From a virus: a stretch of DNA of 64,000 nucleotides. Shown here piece by piece: positions 777 to 61,119 of this stretch (position 1 is its first letter; every line of letters begins with the position of its first letter). The stretch spans positions 1 through 64,000 of IMG/VR virus record IMGVR_UViG_3300046694_000296; one strand, 5' to 3'. The position numbers and the translations under genes are program-made. A model generated the notes under the pieces. It was not told the origin of the DNA. It did not search any database and saw only the letters and a program-made list of their open reading frames with translations.

Positions 777-794
777 TAAGTCACCCGTGACTTA
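777..794 (+). promoter_or_regulatory. Dispersed palindrome, copy 1 (perfect)
   Basis: TAAGTCACCCGTGACTTA is a perfect inverted repeat; with flanking bases the arms are 10 bp (775-784 and 787-796) around CC. Unlike later copies it runs into TACCTAGCG instead of a TATACT box, and a strong terminator follows 14 bases later. Confidence 0.75.
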
Positions 795-807
795 CCTAGC
801 GTAAAAT

Positions 808-838
808 AAAGGGCGTGGGCTTCGGCTCATGCCCTTTT
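808..838 (+). terminator. Rho-independent terminator or attenuator with UUCG loop
   Basis: A 13-bp stem (808-820 with 825-837, two G-U pairs) closes a TTCG tetraloop, and its 3' side merges into TTTT (835-838). It sits between palindrome copy 1 and the next gene's ribosome site, so it either ends the capsid transcript or attenuates transcription that starts at the palindrome. Confidence 0.8.
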
Positions 839-856
839 GCACATCAGGAGTCACAT

Positions 857-1330
857 ATGAAGATCAAGATGGTCCAGCCGGGCTACGAGCAGTTCACGGG
901 CAACTTTGGCGGCGTCGAGTTCGTCGATGGCGTCTCGGTGGTCGATGTCGCGCCGATGATCGCGACGCGCATCGCCAACGTCGTGCGGGTCGAGAACGCC
1001 GAAAATGGCGTGAACCCGTCGGCCTCGCAAACGGCGCTCGACAGCTACTCGACGCCGATGGCGTTGCGCCCGCAAGATGTCCCGGCCGCCAAGCCCCAGA
1101 AATACACCGAAGCCGAGCTCGAAGTGATCGCCAGCAAGGAAGGCATCAAGGGCGTGCGCAAGATCGGCGATACGTTCGGCGTGAAGGCGACCGGCATCGC
1201 CGAGCTGATCGCGCTCATCCTGCGCGCGCAGGCGCCGGACGAGAAGGCCGACTTCCTGGGCGAAGTGCCCTCGGACGTCGTGAAGGCAGAAGAGCCGGTC
1301 GTCGAAACGCCGGCCCCAGCCGCGGAGTAA
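857..1330 (+). CDS. Small head-region structural protein, unknown
   Basis: 157 residues. The ATG at 857 is preceded by AGGAG at 847-851 at normal spacing, so the longer frame beginning at 815 (inside the terminator) is rejected. The middle carries a helical segment (about residues 94-127: YTEAELEVIASKEGIKGVRK) resembling the SAP/Rho-N-like helix pairs seen in small capsid-adjacent proteins, and the tail is Ala/Pro/Glu rich. Position directly after the coat protein suggests a head decoration or connector role; function is not recognised from sequence. Confidence 0.6.
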   Translation: MKIKMVQPGYEQFTGNFGGVEFVDGVSVVDVAPMIATRIANVVRVENAENGVNPSASQTALDSYSTPMALRPQDVPAAKPQKYTEAELEVIASKEGIKGVRKIGDTFGVKATGIAELIALILRAQAPDEKADFLGEVPSDVVKAEEPVVETPAPAAE

Positions 1331-1333
1331 GAC

Positions 1334-2122
1334 ATGGAACGGTATCTCGCCGCAGCGGACGTGAGCGTGACGATCGCGCTCGTGGATAGTGCGGGCAACG
1401 CGTTCACGCCGTCCTCGGCGAGCTACCGCGTGCTCGATGAAGAGGGCACGGCGCTGCTCGAAGCGGCGCCCGTGCCTTACCTGGACCCGAACGGCGGCCC
1501 GCTCGGGATTCTGATTGGCGCCGATCTGAACGTGCTGCCAGCGGGCGCCGTGCGCGCGCTGCGCGTGGTGGAGGTCATTGCGAAGACCGACGCCGGCACG
1601 CGTCTGGTCACCCAGAGCTACATGATCGAGGCGAGCGAGCCGCTCGTTGTCGGCGTCAACTCGTTTCAGACCATCACGAAGGCCGAATTCGTCGCGATGG
1701 ACATTCCGAACCTGCCGGGCTGGACGGCCGCCGACCGGGCCGCGCGCGCCGCCGCGCTGATCCAGGCCCGTGAGAACCTCGGCCAGCTGCGCTACCGTTA
1801 CCGGTTCGACGACAACTGGATGAACTACGTGATGCCGGAGTTCGCGCTCTACTCGATCACGACACTCACGCCCGAGGAATACCTGGGGCTGCCCGCGCCG
1901 TTTCGCCGCAACCTCGAACGCGCACAGGTAATCGAGGCCGACGACCTGCTTAACGCCGACCCGGTGCTGGAGAAGCGGCGCGCGGGCATCGTCTCCGAGA
2001 CGGTGGGCGACTCGACCACCTCCTTTAACCCCGTGCGACCCAACCGCGGCCTCGTGTGCCCGCGCGCCATGCAGGAGATGACGCGCTACGTGCTGCGCCG
2101 CACCCGCCTGAGCCGAGTATGA
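1334..2122 (+). CDS. Probable head-tail connector protein
   Basis: 262 residues, starting 3 bases after the previous stop and ending in a 4-base ATGA overlap with the next gene, so it belongs to one translationally coupled operon. The N-terminal 110 residues look beta-rich; the C-terminal half is helical with a paired Arg/Tyr segment (LRYRYRFDDNW). In siphovirus order this slot is normally a connector or adaptor. No catalytic motif is visible; the call rests mainly on position. Confidence 0.5.
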   Translation: MERYLAAADVSVTIALVDSAGNAFTPSSASYRVLDEEGTALLEAAPVPYLDPNGGPLGILIGADLNVLPAGAVRALRVVEVIAKTDAGTRLVTQSYMIEASEPLVVGVNSFQTITKAEFVAMDIPNLPGWTAADRAARAAALIQARENLGQLRYRYRFDDNWMNYVMPEFALYSITTLTPEEYLGLPAPFRRNLERAQVIEADDLLNADPVLEKRRAGIVSETVGDSTTSFNPVRPNRGLVCPRAMQEMTRYVLRRTRLSRV

Positions 2123-2880
2123 AAAACGTCATCATCGACACGATGGGCGAGTTCGCCGCATCGCAGATCATCGGATACCAGAGCGCGCTCGCGGGCCTGG
2201 TCACCGAGGCCATGAACCCGAACCCGCAGCCGCGGCGCGTGCTGCTCGCGACCATCCAGCGCATGCAGGCGACTACGCTCACGGCGCTCGCCGCGGTGTT
2301 CGACACAGCCGTCACCGATGTCGCGCACAGCGCGGTCGTGAACGCCTACCCCGACACGCCCGATCACGTCGCGGCACAGGTCGCGACCGACGCGCGCGCC
2401 ACGCGCGACGCCGCGCTTGGCACCGTCTCGCAGGCGCTCGCCCGGGATGCAGAGGTCGCGCACGGTCGGATTCGTGACTTTCATCTGAAGGTTGAGATGC
2501 TGCTCGCCGCGGGCGGACGTGGCTACAGCTCGGCGGTGATTGCCGCGGGCATCAGCGAGCGCACGCGCGGCATCACCTTCGGGCAGACCGACACGCTGGG
2601 GCGCCGCTGGAAGAGCTCGCAATTCGTCTCCGCGACGCTCAAGGGCGCCTTGCAGGGCATCTACGCAGACGCGTTCGTGCGCGCCGCCGCAGCGCACGGG
2701 GCAAGCTCGGTCGCGCTGCAGTATGCGGACCCCGAGCACGAGGGTCACGGGCAGATCATCCCGTTTGCCGAGAGCGACGACGCGCCCGGGTATCTGTCCC
2801 TGCGCAACGAGCTTTTTCATCCGAACTCGCGCGCGACGCTCGCGCGGGTGGAAGGGGGCGGCGATGTTCCGGGGCAATAA
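2119..2880 (+). CDS. Virion morphogenesis protein, unknown
   Basis: 253 residues. The ATG at 2119 overlaps the preceding stop (ATGA) and is chosen over the in-frame start at 2056 that would overlap more. The first 135 residues are predicted helical and Ala-rich; the C-terminal part ends with an HPNSRATL-like sequence that faintly recalls the histidine segment at the end of SPP1 gp7-type head morphogenesis proteins. It overlaps the next gene by 17 bases. Treat as an unassigned head/connector component. Confidence 0.5.
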   Translation: MKNVIIDTMGEFAASQIIGYQSALAGLVTEAMNPNPQPRRVLLATIQRMQATTLTALAAVFDTAVTDVAHSAVVNAYPDTPDHVAAQVATDARATRDAALGTVSQALARDAEVAHGRIRDFHLKVEMLLAAGGRGYSSAVIAAGISERTRGITFGQTDTLGRRWKSSQFVSATLKGALQGIYADAFVRAAAAHGASSVALQYADPEHEGHGQIIPFAESDDAPGYLSLRNELFHPNSRATLARVEGGGDVPGQ

Positions 2881-3205
2881 AAACTGCCAGATCGCGCTGG
2901 CCGGCGAGCGCAACCTCTACGGCGAGGAGACGCCCGGCACGAGCAAGACCGAGCGCTGCGCGGTTGTGGAACTCGTCCAGAAGGTGTCGGTGACCAACCA
3001 GCGCTCGCAGATGGCGGGCTCGATGGCGCACGCCGAGGATCTCGGGGTCACCGCCAAGATCAAGCTGGAGCCTGGCACGACGGCCGTGCTCGGCGCGCAA
3101 CTCACGGTCGATGGGGTGGCGCTGCGCATCGTCTCGATCACGCCGAAGAACACCACCTTCGGGCGCCTGGACCACTACGACGTGGAGTGCGCGCCGTGGG
3201 CCTAG
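2864..3205 (+). CDS. Head-closure / adaptor-type protein
   Basis: 113 residues, beginning inside the end of the previous gene (ATG at 2864, stop of the neighbour at 2880). The sequence is short and beta-rich, ending in a strand-turn-strand (VDGVALRIVSITPKN) like small stopper proteins that sit between connector and tail. Size and place just before an HK97 gp10-like gene fit a head-closure role; no diagnostic motif is visible, so this is an inference from order. Confidence 0.5.
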   Translation: MFRGNKNCQIALAGERNLYGEETPGTSKTERCAVVELVQKVSVTNQRSQMAGSMAHAEDLGVTAKIKLEPGTTAVLGAQLTVDGVALRIVSITPKNTTFGRLDHYDVECAPWA

Positions 3206-4040: not shown

Positions 4041-4041
4041 T

Positions 4042-4059
4042 TAAGCTACGAGTTACTTA
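4042..4059 (+). promoter_or_regulatory. Dispersed palindrome, copy 2
   Basis: TAAGCTACGAGTTACTTA lies in the 53-base gap before the tail tube gene. The left half also pairs with CGTAGCTT just downstream, giving an AAGCTACG/CGTAGCTT inverted repeat around the palindrome. Confidence 0.65.
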
Positions 4060-4609: not shown

Positions 4610-4612
4610 GAA

Positions 4613-4630
4613 AAAGTTACGCGTTACTGA
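4613..4630 (+). promoter_or_regulatory. Dispersed palindrome, copy 3
   Basis: AAAGTTACGCGTTACTGA starts a few bases after the tail tube stop and is followed directly by the GGCCGGCG hairpin. Degenerate in the outer bases, but the central GTTACGCGTTAC is intact. Confidence 0.6.
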
Positions 4631-10853: not shown

Positions 10854-11246
10854 ATGGATAAGTCACCCATTACATATGTTGACCTGATCGGGACACCCTT
10901 TCGGCGCGGCGCGCGCGGGCCAGACGAGTTCGATTGCTACGGCCTCGTCAAGTTTCTGATCGAGCGCGCCACGGGCCGCGAAGTGCCGGATTACCAGAGC
11001 CCGACGGACAGCGGCGCGACGCACGCGCTAATGATTACCTCGCGCGAGTTCTGGCACCGGCTGCCCGGCCAGCAGGTCGGCTCGATGGTGTTCTTCCGGA
11101 TCGGCCGTGAGGTCTGTCATGTCGGATATGTAATAAGTAACGGGTTATTCATTCACGCGTGGGAGCCATCGGGCGGCGTAACGATCGAGCGGCTCTCGGA
11201 GTGGGAAAAACGGATCGACGGGTTCTATGAATACATCGAAGGCTAA
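10854..11246 (+). CDS. NlpC/P60 tail-tip peptidase, gpK-like
   Basis: About 130 residues from ATG 10854 (a TTG at 10842 is the longer alternative). The NlpC/P60 catalytic Cys is C28 in DEFDCYGLV and the His is H89 in CHVGYV. Lambda gpK-type proteins assist assembly of the tail tip and may cut peptidoglycan cross-links. The lambda JAMM/Mov34 metalloprotease half found in longer gpK proteins is absent here. The start codon region carries palindrome copy 4. Confidence 0.8.
   Translation: MDKSPITYVDLIGTPFRRGARGPDEFDCYGLVKFLIERATGREVPDYQSPTDSGATHALMITSREFWHRLPGQQVGSMVFFRIGREVCHVGYVISNGLFIHAWEPSGGVTIERLSEWEKRIDGFYEYIEG
10859..10876 (+). promoter_or_regulatory. Dispersed palindrome, copy 4 (inside start of gpK-like gene)
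   Basis: TAAGTCACCCATTACATA overlaps codons 2-8 of the K-like gene. Two mismatches in the right half; may be decayed or a weak site. Confidence 0.4.
11134..11151 (+). promoter_or_regulatory. Dispersed palindrome, copy 5 (intragenic)
   Basis: TAAGTAACGGGTTATTCA lies within the K-like gene, about 75 bases before the J-like start. Only partial in the right half; it could be chance. Confidence 0.3.
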
Positions 11247-17380: not shown

Positions 17381-22375
<4,995 letters not shown>

Positions 22376-23394: not shown

Positions 23395-23412
23395 TAAGTT
23401 ACGAGTCACTTA
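23395..23412 (+). promoter_or_regulatory. Dispersed palindrome, copy 7, with consensus TATAAT
   Basis: TAAGTTACGAGTCACTTA followed by TATAAT at 23414-23419. The hexamer 17 bases upstream is TAGATA, a poor -35. An imperfect hairpin follows at about 23427-23445. Confidence 0.8.
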
Positions 23413-23818: not shown

Positions 23819-23836
23819 TAAGTAAGCGGTGACTGG
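23819..23836 (+). promoter_or_regulatory. Dispersed palindrome, copy 8
   Basis: TAAGTAAGCGGTGACTGG, directly after the previous stop and upstream of the lysis block. No clear -10 follows at the usual position. Confidence 0.55.
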
Positions 23837-27475: not shown

Positions 27476-28174
27476 ATCCACCACACCACGTTTTACGGCA
27501 AAGAACTGACGGTCGCGGACTGCGAAATCCTCGCGCTGACCCGCGTCGATCCCTCGCTGCGGGCGGCCGAGAGCCTGCTTTTCGGCCGCAAGTGGTTCGA
27601 CTACCGCGTCTTCCACCCCGTGCAAGCCACCTATCTCTTCGCCCACGAATACGCGGAAAGCACCAAGCGCGCATACGCCCGCCAAAAAGACATTCGCACA
27701 GTCGCGGGCGTGCAGGGGTTCGATGTCGAAAAGCTTTTCGAGAACCGCGAACTCTCCGCGATGTGGCGGGCACGTCAATCCTTTGATGCGATCGGCTGCC
27801 GCTACGACTTCGCCATCGACTTCATCATGAGGCGATTCTGTGAGCGCGGCTGGAGAGTGTGCCCCCGGCCCAACCAGCTCTACGCGGAGGAGGTCGTGCT
27901 CGACGTGCGCGACGCCTGGCAGCGCGAGTGCAAGGCAAAGATGCAGATCGCCAAGCAAGAGCGGTTCGATGCGCGCCGCTACACCGGCCACCCCGACCAG
28001 AAAGCCTACCAGGCGTGGCAAGTCGATCAGGTCAAAACCCGCGGCGGCAACCGAGCCATGCTGCTCGGACGACTGCTGCAGGAGAACGTGCTCGCCGAAG
28101 CGGTAGTGAGCGCGGCATTCGGCGAGGCGACCCTCTTACAAGCACGCAAGTTCGTTGTCTCATCCAATAAGTAA
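27473..28174 (+). CDS. Unknown phage protein
   Basis: 233 residues from GTG 27473 with GAGGA ahead. No membrane segment. Two regions stand out: an aromatic/His-rich middle (DYRVFHPVQATYLFAHEYAES) and a basic C-terminal half (RDAWQRECKAKMQIAKQERFDARRY). Possibly nucleic-acid binding, as it precedes the Hfq-like and helicase genes, but no family is recognised. Confidence 0.55.
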   Translation: MIHHTTFYGKELTVADCEILALTRVDPSLRAAESLLFGRKWFDYRVFHPVQATYLFAHEYAESTKRAYARQKDIRTVAGVQGFDVEKLFENRELSAMWRARQSFDAIGCRYDFAIDFIMRRFCERGWRVCPRPNQLYAEEVVLDVRDAWQRECKAKMQIAKQERFDARRYTGHPDQKAYQAWQVDQVKTRGGNRAMLLGRLLQENVLAEAVVSAAFGEATLLQARKFVVSSNK

Positions 28175-28185
28175 TTCGTTACTAT
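28168..28185 (+). promoter_or_regulatory. Dispersed palindrome, copy 9, with TATACT
   Basis: TAAGTAATTCGTTACTAT; the -10 TATACT is 28183-28188. The position 17 bases upstream is TCATCC, no -35. Confidence 0.75.
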
Positions 28186-31520: not shown

Positions 31521-31535
31521 GTTACGCGTTACTAT
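31518..31535 (+). promoter_or_regulatory. Dispersed palindrome, copy 10, with TATACT
   Basis: TAAGTTACGCGTTACTAT overlaps the primase stop; TATACT is at 31533-31538. Confidence 0.8.
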
Positions 31536-32734: not shown

Positions 32735-32745
32735 CACATGACTTC
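32728..32745 (+). promoter_or_regulatory. Dispersed palindrome, copy 11, over the ligase start codon
   Basis: TAAGTAACACATGACTTC includes the ATG of the ligase (32738-32740) and the stop of the previous gene (TAA 32732-32734). Bound protein would block elongation or initiation of the ligase gene. Confidence 0.6.
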
Positions 32746-34494: not shown

Positions 34495-34889
34495 CCTACA
34501 AGACCTTCACGCTCGGCGACCTACGCACGCTGCTCGCGCCGCTACCGACCACCCGCAAGCAAGCAGTTCTCTACACGCTCGACACGCGCGGCACGCTCGA
34601 CTACACGACCGTCCTCGGCTGGAAGGAGGCGCTGCGCACGCCCGCGAGCGAGTTCGCGAAGGACATCATTCGCGCACAGCCGCGCCACCTGCGCCTGGAC
34701 TACGTGTTCTGGGAGTATCACGAGACGGGCCAGGCCGCGCCGCTTTTCGGGCTCGAGGATAGCCTGCGGGAAGTGACGATGGGACGGAGCTTTGGCGAGC
34801 TGCAGGAGCTCTACGACCGAATGATCTGGATCGACAGCAGGGTGGAAGCGGAGCACTTCGTGCACACGCTGCTCAAGGAGCTGAATTAG
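34491..34889 (+). CDS. Unknown phage protein
   Basis: 132 residues from ATG 34491. Helical and acidic (SFGELQELYDRMIWIDSRVEAEHFVHTLLKELN) with no known motif. It is isolated after a terminator, with its own leader hairpin, and its end converges on the toxin gene of the opposite strand with a 4-base overlap. Probably regulated on its own; function unknown. Confidence 0.55.
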   Translation: MTYKTFTLGDLRTLLAPLPTTRKQAVLYTLDTRGTLDYTTVLGWKEALRTPASEFAKDIIRAQPRHLRLDYVFWEYHETGQAAPLFGLEDSLREVTMGRSFGELQELYDRMIWIDSRVEAEHFVHTLLKELN

Positions 34890-35158
34890 AGATTGCGCCG
34901 GCGTGCGTGCAGGACGTTCAAGATGTCGATCCGCTTTAGCATGATGCGGTAGACGACGATGTAGTTCGGCAGAACGACCATCTCTCGCGTGTTCGGCCTG
35001 CGGCCCTCGCGATAGACATAGGGGTGATCGGGAAGTGTGGCGGCCGCAGCAAGGATCGTCTCTTGCACGAAATCTGCGGCGTCGATGCTGTCTTTGCTTA
35101 TGTGTTCGTGGATTTCGTCGAGTCGGCGTTCAGCACGCGGGGTCCAGTTAACCACCAC
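34886..35158 (-). CDS. ParE/RelE-family toxin
   Basis: 90 residues from GTG at 35158 (upstream GGAGA supports this start). Fold markers are WTPRAERRLDEIHEHI, the strand TREMVVLPNYIVVYRIM and the C-terminal DILNVLHARR, the normal ParE/RelE pattern. The gene overlaps the antitoxin stop by 11 bases. ParE proteins poison gyrase and RelE proteins cut mRNA; sequence alone does not decide, though the length and LHARR ending are ParE-like. Likely role is plasmid addiction in the prophage state. Confidence 0.85.
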   Translation of the reverse strand: MVVNWTPRAERRLDEIHEHISKDSIDAADFVQETILAAAATLPDHPYVYREGRRPNTREMVVLPNYIVVYRIMLKRIDILNVLHARRRNL

Positions 35159-35345
35159 GCGCTTTTCTCCGCTCTGCGGCACGCGCGCGCAGGTTCGCGA
35201 CAACCTGATCGTGCGGGATCAACTCGCCGCGATCAGCTTCAGCCAGGCCCGCTTCGACCTCTTCACGGAACCACTTGTCGTAGGCTTCAGCCTCTTCCTT
35301 CGTGTCATGCCCGCTGACGGCGGGTTCGGTCCAGATATTTCCCAT
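35148..35345 (-). CDS. Antitoxin partner
   Basis: 65 residues, start ATG at 35345. Pattern DKWFREEVEAGLAEADRGELIPHDQVVANLRARAAERR is common to the antitoxins that pair with ParE-type toxins, with acidic middle and basic tail. It is upstream of the toxin as expected. A promoter fits on the - strand: GTGACG (35393-35398) and TATCAT (35370-35375) with 17-base spacing. Confidence 0.8.
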   Translation of the reverse strand: MGNIWTEPAVSGHDTKEEAEAYDKWFREEVEAGLAEADRGELIPHDQVVANLRARAAERRKARGG

Positions 35346-35566
35346 GAGTCACCTCATTCAGATGCCTTCATGATAGCGCGTGCAGCTTGGCACGTCACCG
35401 CGTCGTCTGCGGCGTGAACCCCTACCTGGTCGTGTTTGTTGATCATCGTTCTTCCTATGTCGTATTGATCAGGAGAAACGTGCTCGCGCTTGACGAAGCC
35501 ACGATAGAATAAAGCGCACCCACCGTCGCGGCCACGTGAGCCGTATGTTCAGCAAAGGCAGATGAC

Positions 35567-36115
35567 ATGAGCGTTGAGGAAGCAAAAAAGAGAGCGCTGG
35601 CAATCGTTCGGGAAAAGGGGCTGGACGTCGCCCTGATAACCGCGTTCCTTGAGACGCGGCATTACGCATCGTGGAGCAAACGGGACGATTTCGCCAAATA
35701 CAATATTGGCCTGTCGAACATATCTGGCGGACCGATGCCCGTGACGGTCGGATTCGCGAGCGGGAACGGCAACTCTGTGACAGCACAGCTGGACGGCATC
35801 GTGTTCACGCTGCGGGGCGTGTGGTATCTGCCTATGTCGTTTGATAGCAGTATCGCGACCGACATCTATGAAGGCGTCGAACTGTTGCTCGGTAACGATG
35901 TCGTGCTTGCTGGGGTGTATCAGGCGCGTGACCACGACGCGTGCATCCCGGCTCAATTTTCGCTGGTCAGCGTTGAGGGTTACCACTCAAGTCCGACGGC
36001 GGAACAGCTGCTCACGAAAATTTCAGATTTGATCAAGGCACACAAAGCGAAGCAAGCGGCCGAGCGCCAGGCCGCGGAAACGGAAAAGTATCGTGGCAAG
36101 TTCTCCTTTGACTAG
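35567..36115 (+). CDS. Unknown protein
   Basis: 182 residues from ATG 35567. A soluble alpha/beta protein with a beta-rich middle (GPMPVTVGFASGNGNSVTAQLDGIVFTLRGVWYLP) and a Lys/Ala/Glu helix at the end (KAHKAKQAAERQAAETEKY). GC content is lower than the phage average, suggesting recent gain. Single gene in + orientation within the mostly - strand plasmid block. Confidence 0.5.
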   Translation: MSVEEAKKRALAIVREKGLDVALITAFLETRHYASWSKRDDFAKYNIGLSNISGGPMPVTVGFASGNGNSVTAQLDGIVFTLRGVWYLPMSFDSSIATDIYEGVELLLGNDVVLAGVYQARDHDACIPAQFSLVSVEGYHSSPTAEQLLTKISDLIKAHKAKQAAERQAAETEKYRGKFSFD

Positions 36116-36241
36116 GAGTTCCTCTGCGGTTTTCTTTTCACGCCTGCACAGGCTAGTTGACATAATACAAATTATCACCGTTTTGGGGCCAGATCATTTT
36201 TTGTCGTCCATGAGCTGGACAAGGCCGGGGAAGCATTAGCG

Positions 36242-36904
36242 TTATTTTTGCTTGTCCGGTTTCAGTTTTATGCCTTGCAGTATGCACATAGCCTCCCTAA
36301 GGTCGTCACCTTCTCGTTTCGGCCGCGCTGCTCGCGCTGCTCGCGCTTCTGGGGTGCACACATCCGCCGAGGTCAGCTTTGTCGCTGAGGCGGGAGCGGG
36401 TGCGCTTGCTGGTGCGATTGGGGGTGCGCTTGCAGTTGCGGGTGCGGTTGCAGTTGTGGGTGCGGGTGCGGGTGCGGGTGGAGAACCTACAGCCTTGGGT
36501 GGTGGACCGGGAGACGGCTCAGCCGGCAGCAACCTATCTAACATCGCCATATACAACTCGGCCTTCTTATCCTTGTCGATGTTGTCTCTCGACATCATCT
36601 GGCAAAAGAGATAGAGCAGTCGATACTTTACATTCGCCTGCTCCGATGTCGGCACGTCGGCGAGATTTTGCGTCACCTGACTCATGTTCCTCTCAACGTT
36701 CCCGCCGATGTCTACAATCTTGTATAACGTTTTTGCTCCGGCGCGAGCCTTTTCCTCGGACCTCTGTGTGAGTTGGATGCGCGGGTCGAGTGGAGAGCAA
36801 TCGTAGACGGGATCGTCGGCCAGCGCTTCGGTAGGACAAGCGACGGCGAAAACCGAAAACGCCGCAGCCGCGATGGAACGTTCCGTGTTCTTCAAATGAC
36901 GCAT
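36242..36904 (-). CDS. Secreted protein with Pro/Ala-rich linker (possible conversion gene)
   Basis: 220 residues from ATG at 36904. N-terminal signal sequence (KNTERSIAAAAFSVFAVAC, then PTEALADD) with an A-L-A cleavage site; AVAC could alternatively act as a weak lipobox. The mature domain (about residues 30-130) has four to five cysteines in total, then a long Pro/Ala/Thr spacer, then a Cys-containing C-terminal motif (DVCTPEARAARAARP and DDLREAMCIL). The opposite orientation to the virion genes and the export signal suggest expression from the prophage that modifies the cell envelope. No family is known to me. Confidence 0.55.
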   Translation of the reverse strand: MRHLKNTERSIAAAAFSVFAVACPTEALADDPVYDCSPLDPRIQLTQRSEEKARAGAKTLYKIVDIGGNVERNMSQVTQNLADVPTSEQANVKYRLLYLFCQMMSRDNIDKDKKAELYMAMLDRLLPAEPSPGPPPKAVGSPPAPAPAPTTATAPATASAPPIAPASAPAPASATKLTSADVCTPEARAARAARPKREGDDLREAMCILQGIKLKPDKQK

Positions 36905-36951
36905 GATGTTTGCCCCTGCTAACTGGCATTGCCTGTCGGCAAAAAAAGACT

Positions 36952-37248
36952 TTACGCCACCCGGCACCACCATGATTGAGCGTAGGCAGTTCCGTCCACA
37001 AACTCAATGCCAGTCAGCACAAACCCGAGCGGACCCATCCATGACAGCGCTGCGTCGTGCAGCGGCGGGAGCGGCTGCGGATCAGCTGCGCCGCCGGTCT
37101 GAAAGCGCGCGATGTTGGTGTAGCGGTTCAGCGCCGAGGACTTTTCCTGGCCGACCACCATGTCGCCCCGAACACCGGGCGCTCGCTGGACGTCGGCGTG
37201 ATCTTGCGCCTTGCCGCGCACGCGCATGGGTGTAGCTTGAATCAGCAT
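36952..37248 (-). CDS. Unknown small protein
   Basis: 98 residues, start ATG at 37248. A plausible single domain (GDMVVGQEKSSALNRYTNIARF, ALSWMGPLGFVLTGIEFVDG, QSWWCRVA). It reads like small accessory proteins of proteobacterial plasmids. No motif of known function. An overlapping alternative frame (37082-37315) is less protein-like. Confidence 0.5.
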   Translation of the reverse strand: MLIQATPMRVRGKAQDHADVQRAPGVRGDMVVGQEKSSALNRYTNIARFQTGGAADPQPLPPLHDAALSWMGPLGFVLTGIEFVDGTAYAQSWWCRVA

Positions 37249-37250
37249 AA

Positions 37251-37670
37251 TTACCAGATGCGTTGAATTGCTGTGACCAGCGTGGCCGCCGCGAAAATAA
37301 ACGCGTAAAAAGCAATCATGGCTTTGACGATGCCAAGTAAGTGCCGGGTCGCGCGGCCCGTTCGTCGTGCCAAAATTTCGACGCCAGGGTCGACGGCCTT
37401 CTCCTCGGTTGTCTTCTGCTCAATTTTTGCGAGAGTTCCGTCAATGAGAGTCTGCTGCGGCTCGCTGACCTCCCGTCTTAACTCTTTCAGCTCGGCTACC
37501 AACTCGTTCATGTCCTTCTGAATTCTCGCTGCTTTCTCGTCTCGGAGCTTCTCAATCTCCAGCAGCCCTTTTTTGATCGTTATTGCACTAGAGAGGATTG
37601 TCGCAATTCCGACCAATGGGACGACGATTGCCGCTAGCACTTTAAGGACGTCGATCAAGCTATCGGGCAT
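37251..37670 (-). CDS. Two-segment membrane protein with coiled coil
   Basis: 139 residues, three bases upstream of the next gene on this strand. Membrane segments at both ends (about 7-28 and 113-135); between them a Lys/Glu coiled coil (KKGLLEIEKLRDEKAARIQKD). This topology, with both ends in the membrane, is seen in small phage superinfection or membrane-stress proteins, but nothing here proves that role. Confidence 0.55.
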   Translation of the reverse strand: MPDSLIDVLKVLAAIVVPLVGIATILSSAITIKKGLLEIEKLRDEKAARIQKDMNELVAELKELRREVSEPQQTLIDGTLAKIEQKTTEEKAVDPGVEILARRTGRATRHLLGIVKAMIAFYAFIFAAATLVTAIQRIW

Positions 37671-37679
37671 GGTAACAAC

Positions 37680-37895
37680 TCAAAAATTCGATTCCAGCCA
37701 TGCCCTCGCCCACGCGATCCCGCGCTCGAAGGCCGCGGCCTCGGTGTCGAAGTAGCCGATGTCGGTGAAGTGGAAAATGTGCCCCATGTCGTCCTCGCCC
37801 AACGAGCCTCGCTCGACCTCGACCCACGCGTGCCAGTGATGGCCCTTCTTTTGGGGAACCGAGTGGATCGTCCACTCGTGATGCTCGACCTTCAT
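37680..37895 (-). CDS. Small unknown protein
   Basis: 71 residues, start ATG at 37895. His/Trp-rich beginning (HHEWTIHSVPQKKGHHWHAWVEVERG) and a helical end (EAAAFERGIAWARAWLESNF) give a compact beta-beta-alpha shape. Similar orphan proteins are common on proteobacterial plasmids and phages; function unknown. Confidence 0.55.
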   Translation of the reverse strand: MKVEHHEWTIHSVPQKKGHHWHAWVEVERGSLGEDDMGHIFHFTDIGYFDTEAAAFERGIAWARAWLESNF

Positions 37896-37927
37896 TGAAA
37901 ACTCTCCACAGGCTTACCCACCGTTTC

Positions 37928-37936
37928 TGTGGATAA
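37928..37936 (+). promoter_or_regulatory. DnaA box (perfect)
   Basis: TGTGGATAA equals the reverse complement of TTATCCACA. It lies just downstream of the initiator gene end. Confidence 0.65.
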
Positions 37937-37968
37937 GTCGATACGTTCGGGCCTGACAGTTAGTTGCA

Positions 37969-38712
37969 TCAAAGCGGCAGCGTGCCTTGGGGATTGCGCC
38001 GGAATTCGAACCGAATGTCCGTCACCTTGCGCCCCTCCTTAATCGGCGACCACGTAATGTCCCATCCGTCTTTCTCCTGCAACTCCTTCACGGCGACCTC
38101 GATGATCTGCTTGCGAGCGTCCTTGAAGTTCTGCAGATGGCTCGGCTTCGCGTCCATCGCGTGCAGGAAGTCCTTGATGGGCATCTGACGCCAGCCGGTG
38201 TCTTTGAACTGCATGAGGAGCTCGAGCAGCCGCCACGAGTAGATCGAGCGAAGCTCCGACGCCTGGCGCAAGAGATAGGTCGTGTGGTTGCCTCGCAGCA
38301 CCATCAGATACGGCGTCGCTTCCGGCGAGAAGCGCAGCTCCACCCACCCTGCCCTGTCCACGTAAGTCGCCCCGCTCACCCACCGATCCTTGTGGGCCGC
38401 GATCGCACCGCGCTGCACCGGCTCGGTCCAGGTGATCCATCGCTCCGCGAGCCCCTCGACGCCGGACTTCAGTTGCTCGTAGGCGGTCGTGGGATCGAGA
38501 TTGAATGTCTCGGCGTATTCCTTCGCTGTCAGTCGCACCTTGTAGCGGTTGTGACTGTCAAGGCGCACACTGTCGATCTTCGCGGCGCACGACTTGACGA
38601 TGCGCTGCTCGGCAAGCGTCTTGAGCCCATGCGAGGCGACCAGGAGGTCGTTGTGCATGGAGACGTGTCGATCAACGAGACTCAGCCCAGGAGTGGCGTG
38701 CTTGAGCTTCAT
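37969..38712 (-). CDS. Plasmid replication initiator, Rep_3-type
   Basis: 247 residues. Two winged-helix units: the first around residues 1-110 (HNDLLVASHGLKTLAEQRIVKS, TAKEYAETFNLDPTTAYEQLKSGVEGLAERWI), the second around 145-240 (SIYSWRLLELLMQFKDTGWRQMPIKDFLHAM, then KDARKQIIEVAVKELQ). This is the pattern of iteron-binding initiators (RepA/RepB/RepE type). Its ATG abuts the iteron array, so Rep can bind near its own promoter. It should drive theta replication of the circular prophage form. Confidence 0.85.
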   Translation of the reverse strand: MKLKHATPGLSLVDRHVSMHNDLLVASHGLKTLAEQRIVKSCAAKIDSVRLDSHNRYKVRLTAKEYAETFNLDPTTAYEQLKSGVEGLAERWITWTEPVQRGAIAAHKDRWVSGATYVDRAGWVELRFSPEATPYLMVLRGNHTTYLLRQASELRSIYSWRLLELLMQFKDTGWRQMPIKDFLHAMDAKPSHLQNFKDARKQIIEVAVKELQEKDGWDITWSPIKEGRKVTDIRFEFRRNPQGTLPL

Positions 38713-39138
38713 TGGGAGGAATTCCGGTTTCGCGGGAGCGGCTTATTGGGAGTGATCGGATTTTGCACCCCCTTTTCTCCTTTGTCACTGGGAGGATTTC
38801 CGATTCAATGGGAGGAAAACCGGGTTACTGGGAGGATTTCCGGGTCCGGGAGCCTGTGCATAACCCTACTTCGACCGGCTTTTCTCCCAATGCGTGACCG
38901 GTCGCCCTCCTACTTTGACCGGTCGCCCACCCATTTAACCCGGAATCTCTCCCATTACCTGCCTGCAAACCCATGCTGGGTAAGGCTTTGAGCCGTATAC
39001 AAACGTTTAAGAACGTATACAAACCACGCGCGAGTAGGCTGTGAACAACTTCTCGCATCTCTTTGATTACCCGGGATTCCTCCCAATCCAAATATCCCGG
39101 GAATCCTCCCAATTCGCGTAACCCGGAAATTCTCCCAA
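38711..39138. repeat. Iteron origin of replication
   Basis: About 20-bp units with core TGGGAGGATTTCCGGGTT. Direct copies start at 38711, 38743 (weak), 38786, 38807 and 38827, the last three spaced 20 bp apart. Inverted copies are at 38877 (weak), 38936, 39068, 39093 and 39119. Between the two sets lies an AT-richer stretch with two copies of CGTATACAAAC (38994 and 39014). A one-mismatch DnaA box TGTGCATAA is at 38855. The region has no convincing gene. Confidence 0.85.
38895..38928. repeat. Short direct repeat in the origin
   Basis: TGACCGGTCGCCC occurs at 38895-38907 and 38916-38928, 21 bp apart, each containing the palindrome GACCGGTC. Different from the iterons; perhaps a second protein site. 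Confidence 0.65.
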
Positions 39139-39175
39139 TAGGACAAGTCCTAAAAGGCAGTCTGCAAAGGGGTGG

Positions 39176-39547
39176 TCAGTCCATGCCCAGGCGCTTCTTC
39201 TCGCGCGCGACTTCCTTGGCTACCGCCTCGGCGATGAAGTCGTTCTTGGTCTTGCCGAGCGCGAAGCAGAGCAGGTTCAAATCCTCCTTCAGCGCTGGCG
39301 GGATGCGAACCGGCTGCTGCACCGGCGTCTCCTTCTTCGGCAGCGCCGCGCGGATGGCCTGCAGATCCACACCTTTACCCACGCGAACCGGCGCCCTCCT
39401 CTCTGCAACGACCACCGGCTCAGGTGCTTGGTCCTCTATCTCCCCCGCCTGAGCTGCGGGCGCCGGCTCATCAATGGCCGCCGTCTCTGCATTCAGGCTG
39501 TCGAGCCACGCTTTGCTTTTCGGTGCGCTCATCGGGTCTTTGCTCAT
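39176..39547 (-). CDS. Ribbon-helix-helix partition partner (ParB-like)
   Basis: 123 residues, coupled to parA by a 4-base overlap. The N-terminal 75 residues are disordered Pro/Ala; the C-terminal 45 residues (VRIPPALKEDLNLLCFALGKTKNDFIAEAVAKEVARE) form a ribbon-helix-helix DNA-binding domain. With a ParA of the short type, such proteins bind the centromere and stimulate the ATPase. No separate ParB is present, so this is the best candidate for that role. Confidence 0.75.
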   Translation of the reverse strand: MSKDPMSAPKSKAWLDSLNAETAAIDEPAPAAQAGEIEDQAPEPVVVAERRAPVRVGKGVDLQAIRAALPKKETPVQQPVRIPPALKEDLNLLCFALGKTKNDFIAEAVAKEVAREKKRLGMD

Positions 39548-40200
39548 GAAAACACTCCAAGGTAAAGGTCTTTCATTTCGTTGGCAGCGGCACTATCCCA
39601 ATCCCGGCCCGAGAGCTCGGACACCGCCCTCCCCTGCGCATTGGCGAACTTGTAGGTTTCACGCGTCGCGACCAGCTTCGTCAGGACCGGCAGCTTGTCC
39701 TCGAACGGCTCCAACTGTTTGATCATCGACTTGGTGAAGCGCTTGCGCGGATCGGCCTGATTGAGCACCACGCGAATGTCGATCTGGCGTTTGTAGCTGC
39801 CGACCAGTGCGTGTAGATCGGGCACCGTGTCGAGGTCCATCTGCGACGGGATCAGCGGCGCGAGCACCTTCTCAGCGACGGCCAGGCCGTAGCGGAAGCC
39901 GTCCGAGTCCTTGCCGCCGACGTCGATGAAAACGTCCTGATACTGATCGGTGAGACGATCGAGCACCTCGGCGAATTCCTGCTTCGTGATCGGCTTGCGC
40001 GGTTCCCACCGCTCGACATGGACCTGCGGAAGAGCCGGGTCGTTAGCGCGGCGTGCCGCCCACTTCGCGGTGCTGTTTTGTCCGTCGAGGTCGAATACGG
40101 CAACCGTGCGCTTGAGCGATGCCCGGATCGCTGCCAAATTCTGGGTGAAGGTAGATTTGCCCACGCCTCCCTTCTCTGTTCCCACCATAATTACGGCCAT
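39544..40200 (-). CDS. parA: ParA partition ATPase
   Basis: 218 residues from ATG at 40200. Deviant Walker A EKGGVGKST (residues 9-17), second motif VAVFDLDGQNS, Walker B region DVFIDVGGKDSDG. No N-terminal HTH, so it is a small type Ib-like ParA that works with a separate DNA-binding partner. Together with the RHH protein and nearby palindromes it should segregate the low-copy prophage. Confidence 0.9.
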   Translation of the reverse strand: MAVIMVGTEKGGVGKSTFTQNLAAIRASLKRTVAVFDLDGQNSTAKWAARRANDPALPQVHVERWEPRKPITKQEFAEVLDRLTDQYQDVFIDVGGKDSDGFRYGLAVAEKVLAPLIPSQMDLDTVPDLHALVGSYKRQIDIRVVLNQADPRKRFTKSMIKQLEPFEDKLPVLTKLVATRETYKFANAQGRAVSELSGRDWDSAAANEMKDLYLGVFS

Positions 40201-40317
40201 AGAAGCCTCGATTGAATGTGTGAATTGTGCGTAGAGTAAAGGCTTGCGCCCCACACTTCAAGTAGATTATGAGCATTTGGAACTACGTCGGAGCAATGCA
40301 AGCCACTATTCAACCGA

Positions 40318-40675: not shown

Positions 40676-41095
40676 TTATTTGTCTGTTCGCTTGTTGTAA
40701 TCCTTCAGAACATGGCGAATTGCTCCATTGAACTCAGGATCGTCAAAGTCCACGTCAGCACCTTTGAGCTCTTCCGAGACTATCCGCTGGAAGTCTTTCT
40801 GCGATTTCGTCACGAACTTGTCGCCGAGCACCTCGTCGATGACCTTCCATGCATCCGGCATGTATTCGTTCATCACGAGCTTCAGTAAGTGCGCCGGATC
40901 GACTCCCAACACGATCGCCATTGCTCGGACCTTGTTGATCGGCAGCTTGGTCTTGCCTTGCTTGAACAGCGTGATGACGTTGCGGTTCGGATATTCGAGC
41001 GCATCGCATATCTCAGCCTGCGTCTTGCCGCTCAAGTCGATCGCGCGAGTGATGTATTCCGCCACCGAGAGTGGCTGCTGTTTCTTCGTGGTCAT
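40676..41095 (-). CDS. XRE-type transcriptional regulator, candidate immunity repressor
   Basis: 139 residues. The helix-turn-helix lies at about residues 24-52 (KTQAEICDALEYPNRNVITLFKQGKTKLP). The rest is helical and acidic-basic mixed, without the peptidase domain found in LexA/CI-type repressors, so induction by self-cleavage is not expected. The gene is single, on the - strand, and reads from a region with a degenerate copy of the dispersed palindrome (41111-41128). That makes it the prime candidate to bind that family. The alternative is a simple plasmid copy-control protein. Confidence 0.65.
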   Translation of the reverse strand: MTTKKQQPLSVAEYITRAIDLSGKTQAEICDALEYPNRNVITLFKQGKTKLPINKVRAMAIVLGVDPAHLLKLVMNEYMPDAWKVIDEVLGDKFVTKSQKDFQRIVSEELKGADVDFDDPEFNGAIRHVLKDYNKRTDK

Positions 41096-41110: not shown

Positions 41111-41128
41111 TTAGTAATTAGTGACATA
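41111..41128 (-). promoter_or_regulatory. Dispersed palindrome on - strand, before the XRE gene (copy 12)
   Basis: Read on the - strand it is TATGTCACTAATTACTAA, two to three bases off the family consensus, followed by TAACAAT. Fits autoregulation of the XRE gene. Confidence 0.55.
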
Positions 41129-41280
41129 CAGATTGTGAGAACAAATTGGTAACCGCTAACTTTCCCTCATGTGTTTGATTATAGAACGCAAAATTGGTTG
41201 CCGAGAAAAAAACACTGCCGATGCTGATGGCGATGCTGTTTGCTGAAGTTGCATCGTGTTCGGTCGCGCACACTACAATA

Positions 41281-41298
41281 TAAGTTAGACGTTACATA
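41281..41298 (+). promoter_or_regulatory. Dispersed palindrome, copy 13
   Basis: TAAGTTAGACGTTACATA in the divergent gap, upstream of the + strand block, followed by AACAAGTGACG, an extra half site. Confidence 0.65.
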
Positions 41299-41337
41299 AC
41301 AAGTGACGTAATTCTAACCCTACCGAGGAGTTGCCTG

Positions 41338-41577
41338 ATGTTGCAGAATTTCACCATCGTGTCCCTGAGCCAAGACCAGGCGATCGTTCTGTTGGCCGAG
41401 ACGATCGAGGCCGGGAGCACGTTGGATGGGGGTTCGGTGCAAACGACCGTATGCCGTCATCCCGCGATTGGCGAGCTCATCCTGGTCCAGAACGCACTCG
41501 GGACGTCTGCCGTAGCACTCGACAAAGCCCAAATTCCTGCGTTAAGTGATTGGTTATCTCCTAGTCTGACCCATTGA
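41338..41577 (+). CDS. Small unknown protein, first gene of the + strand block
   Basis: 79 residues with a strong ribosome site (GAGGAG) 7 bases before the ATG. Alpha/beta, ending in DKAQIPALSDWLSPSLTH. It lies just past the divergent control region, where early control genes often sit. No motif is recognised. Confidence 0.6.
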   Translation: MLQNFTIVSLSQDQAIVLLAETIEAGSTLDGGSVQTTVCRHPAIGELILVQNALGTSAVALDKAQIPALSDWLSPSLTH

Positions 41578-43954: not shown

Positions 43955-43993
43955 ATCTTCCCGCAGGTGAATCACTTTGCCTGCATAGGATAG

Positions 43994-44034
43994 TAAGTGG
44001 TGACTTGACGTAGCCAAGAGTAACCACTTACTAT
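43994..44034 (+). promoter_or_regulatory. Inverted pair of palindrome half-sites with -35 TTGACG
   Basis: TAGTAAGTGGT and ACCACTTACTA form an 11-bp inverted repeat (43991-44001, 44024-44034). Between them lie TTGACG (44005-44010) and, 18 bases on, TACTAT (44029-44034). This is a variant of the dispersed element with a real -35. Confidence 0.65.
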
Positions 44035-45306: not shown

Positions 45307-45324
45307 TAAGTAACAGGTAACTAT
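45307..45324 (+). promoter_or_regulatory. Dispersed palindrome, copy 14, over the sigma-like start
   Basis: TAAGTAACAGGTAACTAT runs into TATCAT, whose last bases are part of the ATG at 45326. A transcript from here would lack a leader, so this copy is more likely an operator than a promoter for that gene. Confidence 0.6.
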
Positions 45325-45325: not shown

Positions 45326-45964
45326 ATGCAATTGGCCCAATCGACTGTAACGAATGCCCGCACCTCCACGCGCTACGAGGACCACACGGGGATGCTGCAC
45401 AAACTGGCAAAACGCGGCTGGGGCCGGTTGCAGGAGGCAGGGCTCTCCCTGCCTTACGACGACGTGTTCCAGCAGATGTGCGAGTCGTTCGTGAAGTGTC
45501 AGGCGACCTACAAGGCTGACACCGGCTTCACGTTCTCGGCGTATTACGGTCGCTCGATCTGGAACAACTTCAACAAGTGGGCCGAGCGCCAGATCGAGGA
45601 AAAGCACACGCTTGGCCTCGTCTCGGTCGAGTCGCTGTGCGGCGCTGACGATGAAGGGGAGGGCGACGCCTACGAATTCATCGAGCAAGAGGACGAAGAC
45701 GACACGCCCGAAGATCGCCTGGCCGCGCGTCAGGAGAGCCACCGGCTCGCCCGCATGCTCTCGGACGACGCGAAGCGCATGGTGGCGCTGCTCGCGCACC
45801 AGACCCCGGCGCTTGAGCGCTGGATGGAGGAGCGCAACGCCCGGATGCTCAAGAAGACGCATCACATCAATCTGTGGCTGCTCGGCGAGTTCCTCGGTTT
45901 CGACCGCAACAAGACGAGCCGCCTGCGCCTGGAGCTCGAACGCGTCTACGGCGTGGAGCTGTAA
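45326..45964 (+). CDS. Sigma-70-like factor
   Basis: 212 residues. Residues about 45-90 match sigma region 2: DDVFQQMCESFVKCQATYKAD, TGFTFSAYYGRSIWNNFNKWAE, with the FxxY and WxxN pattern of the core-binding and -10-contact helix. An acidic linker (DEGEGDAYEFIEQEDEDD) follows, then a region-4-like helix-turn-helix at the C-terminus (WLLGEFLGFDRNKTSRLRLELERV). It could switch transcription to phage promoters. Divergent enough that a DNA-binding protein of another kind cannot be ruled out. Confidence 0.65.
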   Translation: MQLAQSTVTNARTSTRYEDHTGMLHKLAKRGWGRLQEAGLSLPYDDVFQQMCESFVKCQATYKADTGFTFSAYYGRSIWNNFNKWAERQIEEKHTLGLVSVESLCGADDEGEGDAYEFIEQEDEDDTPEDRLAARQESHRLARMLSDDAKRMVALLAHQTPALERWMEERNARMLKKTHHINLWLLGEFLGFDRNKTSRLRLELERVYGVEL

Positions 45965-50667: not shown

Positions 50668-50685
50668 TAAGTGACGCGTTACTAT
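50668..50685 (+). promoter_or_regulatory. Dispersed palindrome, copy 15, with TATACT
   Basis: TAAGTGACGCGTTACTAT with TATACT 50683-50688. A hairpin follows at 50708-50723 (GTGAC/GTCAC), and a lone half-site GTGACTTAC is near 50743. Confidence 0.8.
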
Positions 50686-54816: not shown

Positions 54817-55252
54817 GCTCAAGGTCAAAGAGTGGAAGCCCTCGACCTGCGGCAAATTCCAGTGCGCCAAGGTCAAGAAGGGCCACAGCCTCTACGGCGA
54901 GATCCGCAAGTATCCGAACGGCATGTCGATCTACTGGGCCTTTCGCAAGCCCGACGAGGTGTTCGTGGAGCTCGACGCCTGGGCGGTGGATACCGAGACG
55001 ATCTCCGTCATGAAGAGCCGACGCGTCACGCACATCGGCATTCTGGTGAGCAACGGCGACCAATACCTCACGCGCATCGAGACGATGACCGACAAGGACA
55101 AGGGCGCCGTGGTCCTGAACTACAGCAAGCACAAGGGCGCTCGCGGCAAGTTCGGCGCGCGCCAGTGGTATCTGCCGCGCTCGCAGTTCGTGCAGCAACT
55201 CGCGCCGCCGGAGTCGACGCTGGAGCAGATGAAGATCAGAGGGCGCAGATAA
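54809..55252 (+). CDS. Unknown basic protein
   Basis: 147 residues, 8-base overlap with the previous gene. Positive charge is spread along the chain (KVKEWKPSTCGKFQCAKVKKGH, then NYSKHKGARGKFGARQWYL), consistent with nucleic-acid binding. Part of the three-gene unknown set after recA. Confidence 0.5.
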   Translation: MAELKVKEWKPSTCGKFQCAKVKKGHSLYGEIRKYPNGMSIYWAFRKPDEVFVELDAWAVDTETISVMKSRRVTHIGILVSNGDQYLTRIETMTDKDKGAVVLNYSKHKGARGKFGARQWYLPRSQFVQQLAPPESTLEQMKIRGRR

Positions 55253-55267
55253 GTAAGCCGTTACGTG
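55250..55267 (+). promoter_or_regulatory. Dispersed palindrome, copy 16
   Basis: TAAGTAAGCCGTTACGTG; ends close to a TACAAT (55273-55278) and a small hairpin TCATT/AATGA in front of the next gene. Confidence 0.65.
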
Positions 55268-55308: not shown

Positions 55309-55716
55309 ATGATTCTAGCCAGTGCTCTGCTGTGCCTTACTTTGAACGTGTATCACGAAAGCCGGGACCAACCCATCCTCGGGCAATACGCCGTCGCCGC
55401 CGTCACCATGAACCGCGCGGGCGACGATCCGGCCAAGGTCTGCGAGGTCGTCACGCAGCCGCATCAATTCAGCTGGACGACCACTAAGCTCGCGCGCGAC
55501 CGCAAGGGCTGGCGGCTCAAGACGGCGGGCGTGCCCAAAGACGACTTCGCCTGGATGATCGCGAGCCGCATCGCCTACAACACGCTCACCGGCAAGAAGA
55601 TCGACCTCACGCGCGGCGCGACCTACTTCCACACGAAAGCCGTGCGCCCAAGCTGGCGCGAGAAGTTCATCCGGGCTGTCACCATCGGCGACCACGTTTT
55701 TTATCGCGTCACGTAA
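55309..55716 (+). CDS. Cell wall hydrolase, SleB/CwlJ-type
   Basis: 135 residues. Recognised by TLNVYHESRDQPILGQYAVAAVTMNRAG and later ATYFHTKAVRPSW, the hallmarks of the SleB hydrolase_2 group; the Glu in YHESR is the proposed catalytic residue. No full signal peptide is evident, although residues 1-12 are hydrophobic. It is about 30 kb from the lysis block and flanked by two palindrome copies, so it might act in entry, in prophage cell-wall remodelling or in superinfection control rather than lysis. Confidence 0.75.
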   Translation: MILASALLCLTLNVYHESRDQPILGQYAVAAVTMNRAGDDPAKVCEVVTQPHQFSWTTTKLARDRKGWRLKTAGVPKDDFAWMIASRIAYNTLTGKKIDLTRGATYFHTKAVRPSWREKFIRAVTIGDHVFYRVT

Positions 55717-55731
55717 GCAACGGGTTACTAT
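55714..55731 (+). promoter_or_regulatory. Dispersed palindrome, copy 17, with TATACT
   Basis: TAAGCAACGGGTTACTAT with TATACT 55729-55734, upstream of the next membrane-protein gene. Confidence 0.75.
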
Positions 55732-60370: not shown

Positions 60371-60381
60371 AGGAAAAGAAC

Positions 60382-60987
60382 ATGAAACTGAAGATAGTTG
60401 GACTCGATCCGTCTTTGACCCACACGGGCATCGCGATCATGGAATACGACACGATCACGGGCACGCTCGGCACGCCGGAGCTGCGCCTGATCGTGACCGA
60501 GGGGCAGGGCAAGAAGAAGGTGGTGCGCCAGAACTCGGATGACGTGCGTCGCGTGCGTGAAATCGTCAAGGGTGTGCATGACGCCTGCAATGGCGCGCTC
60601 TTCGCCGTCTCTGAGATGCCCACGGGCGCGCAGAGTTCGCGCGCTGCGTTCGCGTTCGGCATGGTGATCGGCGTGCTCGCCGGCTTGCCGGTGCCCATGA
60701 TTCAGGTCAGCCCGCTCGAAGTGAAGCTGGCAGCGGTCGGGCACAAACAGGCCGCGAAGGAAGAAATGATTGAGTGGGCACACCAGAAGTATCCGGCGGC
60801 GAACTGGCTGCGTCACGAGAAGAACGGTCGCGTCAAAACCAAGCTCGGCTTCAAGGAATGGAAGGCGGGCGATTTGGTGAACGACAACGAGCACCTGGCC
60901 GATGCCATCGCGGTCGCCGAAGCCGGGTTGCTCACCGACCAGTTCAAGCAGGCGGTGGCGATGCTGTCCTTCGCGAAGGCAGCTTAG
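60382..60987 (+). CDS. RuvC-like Holliday junction resolvase
   Basis: 201 residues. RNase H-fold acidic residues: D9 in GLDPSLTHTGIA, E in SEMPTGAQSSRAAFAFG, and D in NEHLADAIAVAEAG. The order and the ends match RuvC-type resolvases of large phages. It should cut branched DNA before packaging. Confidence 0.8.
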   Translation: MKLKIVGLDPSLTHTGIAIMEYDTITGTLGTPELRLIVTEGQGKKKVVRQNSDDVRRVREIVKGVHDACNGALFAVSEMPTGAQSSRAAFAFGMVIGVLAGLPVPMIQVSPLEVKLAAVGHKQAAKEEMIEWAHQKYPAANWLRHEKNGRVKTKLGFKEWKAGDLVNDNEHLADAIAVAEAGLLTDQFKQAVAMLSFAKAA

Positions 60988-60988
60988 T

Positions 60989-61000
60989 CCCGGAAGCGGG
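60989..61000 (+). other. Small hairpin before nrd operon
   Basis: CCCG-GAAG-CGGG. A TATACT without palindrome follows at 61010-61015. Confidence 0.4.
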
Positions 61001-61063
61001 CAGCCAACCTATACTGAAGAGGGAAGGGGTCGCGAGCAGCGGCTTATTTTTTGGCTTTGCTGT

Positions 61064-61081
61064 AGAGTAACCACTGACTTA
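61064..61081 (+). promoter_or_regulatory. Dispersed palindrome, copy 18, with TACAAT
   Basis: AGAGTAACCACTGACTTA with TACAAT 61080-61085, the likely promoter of the nrd operon. Confidence 0.65.
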
Positions 61082-61119
61082 CAATCCATTCCCCCTCCGA
61101 ACGAACCCGAGAAACATAC

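Follow-up and report, generated by a model that had tools for sequence, protein, structure and literature searches.

The 64,000-nucleotide stretch of virus DNA analysed here (the window; bases 1-64000 of record IMGVR_UViG_3300046694_000296) carries an 18-bp palindrome scattered ahead of its genes, and these palindromes are very probably dispersed operators for a single dimeric helix-turn-helix (HTH) repressor, encoded at 40676-41095, that would silence the phage in lysogeny. The units themselves, their placement and conservation, the predicted fold of the repressor, and the way repressor and palindrome occur together in related genomes, with sequences matched by clade, were all observed; from them we infer binding, dimerisation, repression and the lysogenic role. 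An original prediction, made from the letters of the sequence, had described about 19 copies of the repeat and offered two readings, one of immunity operators and the other of a promoter class specific to the phage. The first is supported by two registers of the -10 element, by the symmetry of the unit and by the co-occurrence of HTH protein and palindrome.

In the complete metagenomic record (215,656 bp), two genomes that are syntenic and about 80% identical have been joined into one sequence, end to end, and a 127-bp repeat lies at the record ends. The record is most likely a chimeric assembly in which two related circular genomes were read through as one; given the joined pair, the “genome size” attached to the record is double the real one. 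We refer to the part containing the window as genome A (1-108,902; about 108.9 kb), to the other half of the record as genome B, and to a further related genome as G002.

Allowing up to three mismatches to TAAGTNACNNGTNACTTA, the window contains 19 matches, against 0.19 on average and at most 2 in 100 shuffled versions; the comparison with shuffled sequence, which the original prediction had put forward as a hazard to its claim, thus leaves the repeat family standing. Across the whole record there are 72 copies, against three for the reversed pattern. A scan with a symmetric matrix gives 39 units in A, 22 of them within the window, and 38 each in B and G002. The estimate of about 19 copies was therefore correct for the pattern and too low for the matrix, having missed the units at 41146 and 41293; as for the individual positions, 18 of the 19 were right, and the one given as 43994 was out of register with the real units at 43990-44007 and 44017-44034.

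The units are overwhelmingly intergenic (36/39 in A, 35/38 in B, 34/38 in G002) in genomes of which 10-15% is non-coding (15% in A), an enrichment with a binomial p of 9e-27 for A and of about 1e-26 or lower overall; gene calls were made with a simple purpose-written codon-usage caller, and a few intergenic or coding assignments may be off. Measured from the unit centre, the next start codon is a median 54-61 bp away. In seven units of A the stop codon of the upstream gene falls inside the unit, and in several (those at 31518, 55250 and 55714 among them) that codon is the unit's own TAA. Most copies had been thought to face the downstream gene, a description that loses its meaning for a palindrome, which has no strand.

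Placement is conserved between genomes: 34 of the 38 mappable units of A are present at the matching place in B, and likewise 34 of 38 in G002, against rates of 0.30 and 0.34, respectively, for random intergenic points. Where units stand in pairs their spacing is identical in A, B and G002, being 35 bp ahead of the repressor gene and 27 bp ahead of CobS. Between A and G002 the specified bases are mostly better conserved than the N positions, and in most columns better than the flanks; identity is 0.81-1.0 at most specified bases (the exceptions are base 11, at 0.69, and base 17, at 0.77), 0.46-0.69 at the N positions and 0.77 in the flanks.

Within the window, the units begin with a perfect match at 777-794, in the leader of the gene following the major head gene and in register in B and G002, followed by units at 4042-4059 (one mismatch) and 4613-4630 (two mismatches), the former orthologous in B and G002 and the latter also orthologous. 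Those at 10859-10876, at 11134-11151 (ahead of the tail fibre J gene, which starts at 11227) and at 23819-23836 are each supported by pattern, matrix and ortholog; the unit at 17381-17398 has one mismatch together with matrix and ortholog support, and that at 23395-23412 has none, with a TATAAT beginning at unit base 20. Among replication genes, 28168-28185 precedes the operon of the DnaB-type helicase and contains the end of the upstream gene, 31518-31535 supplies the stop codon of the primase gene, and 32728-32745 overlaps the start of the DNA ligase gene (pattern, matrix and ortholog). TATACT begins at base 16 of the first two of these, as it does at 50668-50685, ahead of the SSB operon, and at 55714-55731; the last, like 55250-55267 (pattern and matrix), shares its TAA with the stop codon of the upstream gene. 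The unit at 45307-45324, directly ahead of a sigma-like gene, and that at 61064-61081, ahead of ribonucleotide reductase, are both found by pattern and matrix.

The remaining units of the window lie beside the repressor, CobT and CobS genes. Two lie upstream of the repressor gene, at 41111-41128 (25 bp from its start) and at 41146-41163 (60 bp from its start; found by matrix and orthologous in B). A third, at 41281-41298 (pattern and matrix), lies in the divergent promoter of a small open reading frame (ORF) and the CobT operon, with TACAAT just upstream, and is overlapped by a weak unit at 41293-41310 with three mismatches and a matrix score of 13.9. The pair ahead of CobS (43990-44007 and 44017-44034) was recovered by the matrix, the second member being orthologous, and both B and G002 retain the pair.

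An inverted repeat in untranslated leaders might also act as RNA, as a hairpin or terminator. In units of the window's type, the two arms are complementary at positions 1/18 and 2/17 no more frequently than after random reassignment of right arms, and at 6/13 less frequently, so that single bases and not pairing are conserved; this indicates a constraint on each half-site in the DNA, as expected for a protein dimer and not for an RNA stem. A search of Rfam gave no match, and with the arms not covarying we rejected an RNA element, which is hardly credible here. The shortfall of complementarity at 6/13 was seen in the units of G002, G007 and G014, as if one A-type and one C-type half-site were preferred together.

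The relation of the unit to promoter elements is less uniform than had been supposed. The -10 hexamer had been placed from unit base 16 onwards, and TATA[ACT]T, looked for across three genomes, does begin at bases 16-22 (15 cases exactly at 16); it also begins at -8 to -4 before the unit, and many units have no recognisable -10, about a third having one alongside. The hexamer 17 bases upstream had been called unconserved, and inspection agrees, with no conserved -35 at 17-bp spacing. The heptamer CTATA[AC]T occurs 16 times between genes and three times within them in A, and 12 of the 16 intergenic copies adjoin a unit; it is a separate intergenic class of -10 element, a partner of the operator and not the palindrome itself. 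Since the -10 can stand on either side of the unit, the unit is not itself a promoter. Both registers are compatible with steric exclusion of polymerase, the unit overlying the start site in one and the sequence immediately 5' of the -10 in the other.

These observations bear on the second of the two original readings, that the unit belongs to a phage-specific promoter class, which would be read by the divergent sigma-70-like factor encoded at 45326-45964 on the plus strand. This gene has a weak match to PF04542 (region 2; E 0.0019), and the 50 best fold matches to its model (mean predicted local distance difference test score, pLDDT, 67.5) are all sigma factors, none with an E-value below 0.01; the strongly intergenic CTATA[AC]T, so often beside a palindrome and lacking a conserved -35, would also suit such a factor. 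Against it, a sigma promoter class calls for a fixed distance to the -10, and we find two registers, on either side of a symmetric unit. The gene is also distributed wrongly: by profile it is present in Stenotrophomonas phage BUCTxx99, which is free of the palindrome, and was undetected in the palindrome-bearing Cyrano, pJN2-26 and SSU5; the same search did not detect it in nickie or G018 either. The sigma-like factor does not track the palindrome and is not its reader, and on register and gene distribution we rejected this promoter class, which is distinctly unlikely. Of the two proteins originally put forward as possible binders, the product of 40676-41095 is our proposed repressor. The sigma-like factor is common to many of these phages, and may read CTATA[AC]T promoters that have no -35.

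The proposed master repressor (40676-41095, minus strand; 139 residues) falls in a PHROG of transcriptional regulators and is homologous to the “putative repressor” of Cyrano; its relatives adjoin CobT in Rhizobium phages, Cyrano and pJN2-26. Its AlphaFold model (pLDDT 74.6 overall, 85-89 over the HTH) predicts the five-helix HTH domain of the 434/P22 fold that defines XRE/lambda-repressor-like regulators. Foldseek matches include P22 c2, 434 Cro, the N-domain of DdrO, and Stl, with template-modelling scores, normalised by target, of about 0.8 for P22 c2, 434 Cro and the DdrO N-domain and up to 0.82 (P22 c2) over about 64 residues. The 139-residue protein shows no LexA-like protease domain. 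In 17 of 19 genomes the 300 bp ahead of the HTH start contain a unit. Genome A has one repressor gene and 39 genome-wide units that include its own promoter, the logic of P1 C1, with this protein as the presumed binder.

The element itself is, on its gene content, a phage-plasmid of the SSU5/nickie/RHEph10 kin. PHROG matches in genome A include a siphovirus head and tail set, a DnaE-type polymerase, a DnaB-type helicase, primase, ligase, SSB, exonuclease, a RecA-like protein, SbcCD, ribonucleotide reductase and CobS/CobT, and it has the core order that marks this kin (DnaE-type polymerase, primase, CobS/CobT, SSB, exonuclease, RecA-like protein, SbcCD). It also has the second mark, genes for plasmid replication and partition, identified by Pfam as Rep3_N and Rep3_C and a ParA-like ATPase, with a ParE/PaaA2 pair. 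The DnaE aligns over its full length, at 36-46% identity, with the DnaE of two Rhizobium phages (RHEph10, X66), of nickie (a Pseudomonas phage) and BUCTxx99, and of two phage-plasmids, SSU5 and Cyrano, and 57 records match it with at least 80% coverage; genome A is syntenic with X66 and with Cyrano. A megablast search with part of the window against phages returned no near relative.

Among these relatives, repressor and palindrome occur together. When 12 further virus contigs were chosen solely for encoding an HTH relative, the strongest intergenic palindrome found de novo in 11 of them was AGTCA-N4-TGACT or its TAAGT-N8-ACTTA frame (ATAGT-N8-ACTAT in G007). Refined matrices find 29-55 units in each of 20 genomes, 728 of 832 in sum being intergenic, with the counts for G003, G008 and G009 probably including false units, as their intergenic share is lower. 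Altogether, 19 of the 20 genomes with the HTH gene have a dispersed palindrome, and nickie and BUCTxx99 were found to have neither; no palindromes were found in the nickie-like hairong. A looser count, with 6-base arms and one mismatch, was dropped as insensitive, for it did not separate genomes. HTH homologs encoded in 13 bacterial genomes were accompanied by the palindrome at one locus (L088), the only one that also holds the phage core; the other 12 (e.g., in Rubrivivax, Roseovarius and Noviherbaspirillum) had no CobT, ligase or primase in the stretches examined, nor a palindrome, and look like other elements.

Comparison of the sequences indicates that the palindrome goes with the clade of the HTH protein. 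Four Rhizobium phages carry two different HTH types, and their palindromes differ: TAAGTAAN4TTACTTA in X66 and B1VFA (41 copies against none in the control), and the TCAGTCAATA type in RHEph10 and Y2_11; that of the enterobacterial group is TAAGTA..TACTTA. Phages do borrow host regulators, and the units might accordingly be sites for a host transcription factor. Phages of Rhizobium with different palindromes that match different phage HTHs, and conversely one frame that recurs in phages sharing an HTH while infecting distant hosts, make this highly improbable. At a finer scale, unit base 6 varies with the recognition-helix residue that is Asn37 in the window protein: it is C (0.94-0.99) in ten genomes with Lys at this position, and A or mixed in six that have Asn. 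Lys-G and Asn-A are familiar protein-DNA contacts.

The distribution of units along the genome is what would be expected of an operator that silences lytic genes. In the plasmid (lysogenic) state, a repressor dimer would bind about 38 units per genome; those with a visible -10 overlap either the region just upstream of it or the start site, and RNA polymerase would be kept off. The leaders silenced in this way would be those of lytic operons for head, tail, replication and nucleotide metabolism, while a plasmid-maintenance block without units (34886-40254, minus strand; by Pfam, the ParE/PaaA2 pair, the Rep3 initiator and ParA) would stay on. No unit was found between 32.7 and 41.1 kb, an 8.4-kb stretch of A that includes the toxin-antitoxin pair, Rep3, ParA and the repressor gene, and the matching stretch is the second-largest gap between units in B and the largest in G002. 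The two units upstream of the repressor gene would provide autoregulation, and the third, over the divergent promoter of the conserved small gene and CobT, a switch.

For Cyrano, published expression data allow a comparison with this scheme: in the lysogen, transcription of its repressor gene stands 10-fold over background (PMC9928086). Genes of Cyrano expressed in the lysogen are modestly under-represented in unit-led operons: 2 of 13, the repressor excluded, against 54 of the 109 remaining genes (p 0.018 when operons are defined by a 60-bp gap), and we take this depletion as supporting, not decisive. The same data bear on the possibility that the unit is an activator site, through which the HTH protein or another factor switches genes on in lytic growth. 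Units near -10 elements that lack a good -35 do resemble activated promoters; yet the class II units fall across the start site, on the downstream side of the -10, a position from which activators seldom work, and units upstream of the repressor gene with none at maintenance genes fit repression. In the Cyrano lysogen the repressor is expressed and most operator-led genes are missing from the expressed set; activation is very unlikely.

Several findings weigh against the repressor-operator interpretation. The Cyrano depletion depends on how operons are defined, p being 0.2 with directly adjacent genes and 0.011-0.068 with other gaps. One genome, G018, has the HTH gene, CobS/CobT and the DnaE of the family, and no dispersed palindrome was found in it. 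Conversely, SSU5 (NC_018843) has 29 units and no detectable HTH gene, with no gene called at about 41.8-42.7 kb; this absence is best read as a loss, which would fit a phage that has lost lysogeny. The Foldseek E-values for the repressor model are all above 0.001. Finally, the Lys37 genomes form a single clade on the DnaE tree (from which the Lys genome G008 is absent), so that the link between residue 37 and base 6 is one event and not replicated evidence. As a separate observation on G018, the words AAGTAAG and ATTAATA are enriched between its genes.

Among known systems, the logic of the network is like that of P1 C1 and, less closely, that of the Cluster A mycobacteriophages; what sets it apart is the protein, together with the symmetry and promoter linkage of the site. 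P1 is likewise a phage-plasmid in which one repressor has dispersed operators, 22 over the genome (PMC8546580), with autoregulation and a small protein, Coi, encoded beside the repressor gene. The P1 operator is an asymmetric 17-bp site (ATTGCTCTAATAAATTT), whereas here it is an 18-bp palindrome in about 38 copies, and the protein here is a short XRE/lambda-repressor-like HTH; a tblastn search of the repressor against the phage collection returned no P1 record among its matches, and with a symmetric operator of another sequence the system does not place in the C1 family. Phages lambda, 434 and P22 share the HTH fold, symmetric operators that overlap promoters, and a divergent switch; they have few operators, in contrast to the tens of units for one repressor here.

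Cluster A genomes have 20-30 repressor sites each, with clade-specific motifs that track repressor divergence (PMC6550527), in both respects like the units described here. By analogy, the units could be stoperators of the L5 kind, blocking elongation and not initiation, and their dispersal at about 20-50 per genome would agree with that (PMC6550527). The sites of L5 are asymmetric, 13-14 bp long, bound by monomers, oriented with transcription and mostly off promoters (PMC6550527); the units here are palindromic, without the asymmetric, transcription-oriented form, and about a third of them have a recognisable -10 alongside, for which reason we consider stoperators unlikely.

The conserved small ORF at 41338-41577 (plus strand; 79 residues), divergent from the repressor gene and behind the units at 41281, is a candidate antirepressor. 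P1 Coi is a small protein made from a repressor-controlled promoter beside c1, and it inactivates C1 (PMC8546580); the position of the small ORF suggests a protein acting like Coi. A related small gene of roughly 47-84 codons is present at the corresponding place in 15 genomes, and a hidden Markov model built from the clade of the window retrieved all ten members of the other clade from the full protein set (E 7e-6 to 0.075). Cyrano and pJN2-26 have 70-residue genes at the corresponding place, whose relation to these is unproven.

We propose, tentatively and with slightly less than even confidence, that a supergroup of phage-plasmids of about 105-120 kb, from Enterobacteriaceae to Rhizobium and uncultured hosts, might be run by one fast-diverging immunity module of three parts: an XRE repressor; a set of 30-50 symmetric operators whose sequence is rewritten across the genome when the recognition helix changes; and a conserved small protein (mostly 60-84 residues) facing the repressor as a Coi/Cro-like antirepressor that resembles neither. 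We found no published description of operators in SSU5/RHEph10/nickie kin in the open-access literature, which is weak evidence of absence; the kind of network is known, and this variant, its breadth and its switch appear to be new. Putative operators are now identified in some 20 genomes of a large phage-plasmid group, with a named proposed repressor and a candidate antirepressor. SSU5-like phage-plasmids, frequent in enterobacteria, are known carriers of resistance genes (PMC9600943); we found no account of how they stay silent, which the proposed switch addresses. Read as operators, the units make predictions on mutual exclusion among phage-plasmids and on their induction, and they offer a chance to study a joint change of specificity in one protein and about 40 scattered sites.

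Two smaller observations concern the accessory features of these elements. The ParE toxin and PaaA2-like antitoxin of genome A are encoded as a pair at 34886-35345, inside the maintenance block. SSU5, Cyrano/pLF82 and pJN2-26 share with genome A the core gene order with DnaE, CobS/CobT, Rep and ParA, and about 30 palindromes with the TAAGT half in common; their palindrome differs in that its arms are 4 bp closer together, and Cyrano, SSU5 and pJN2-26 have in addition a second dispersed intergenic palindrome, AAACAANTTGTTT, in about 11-14 copies per genome.

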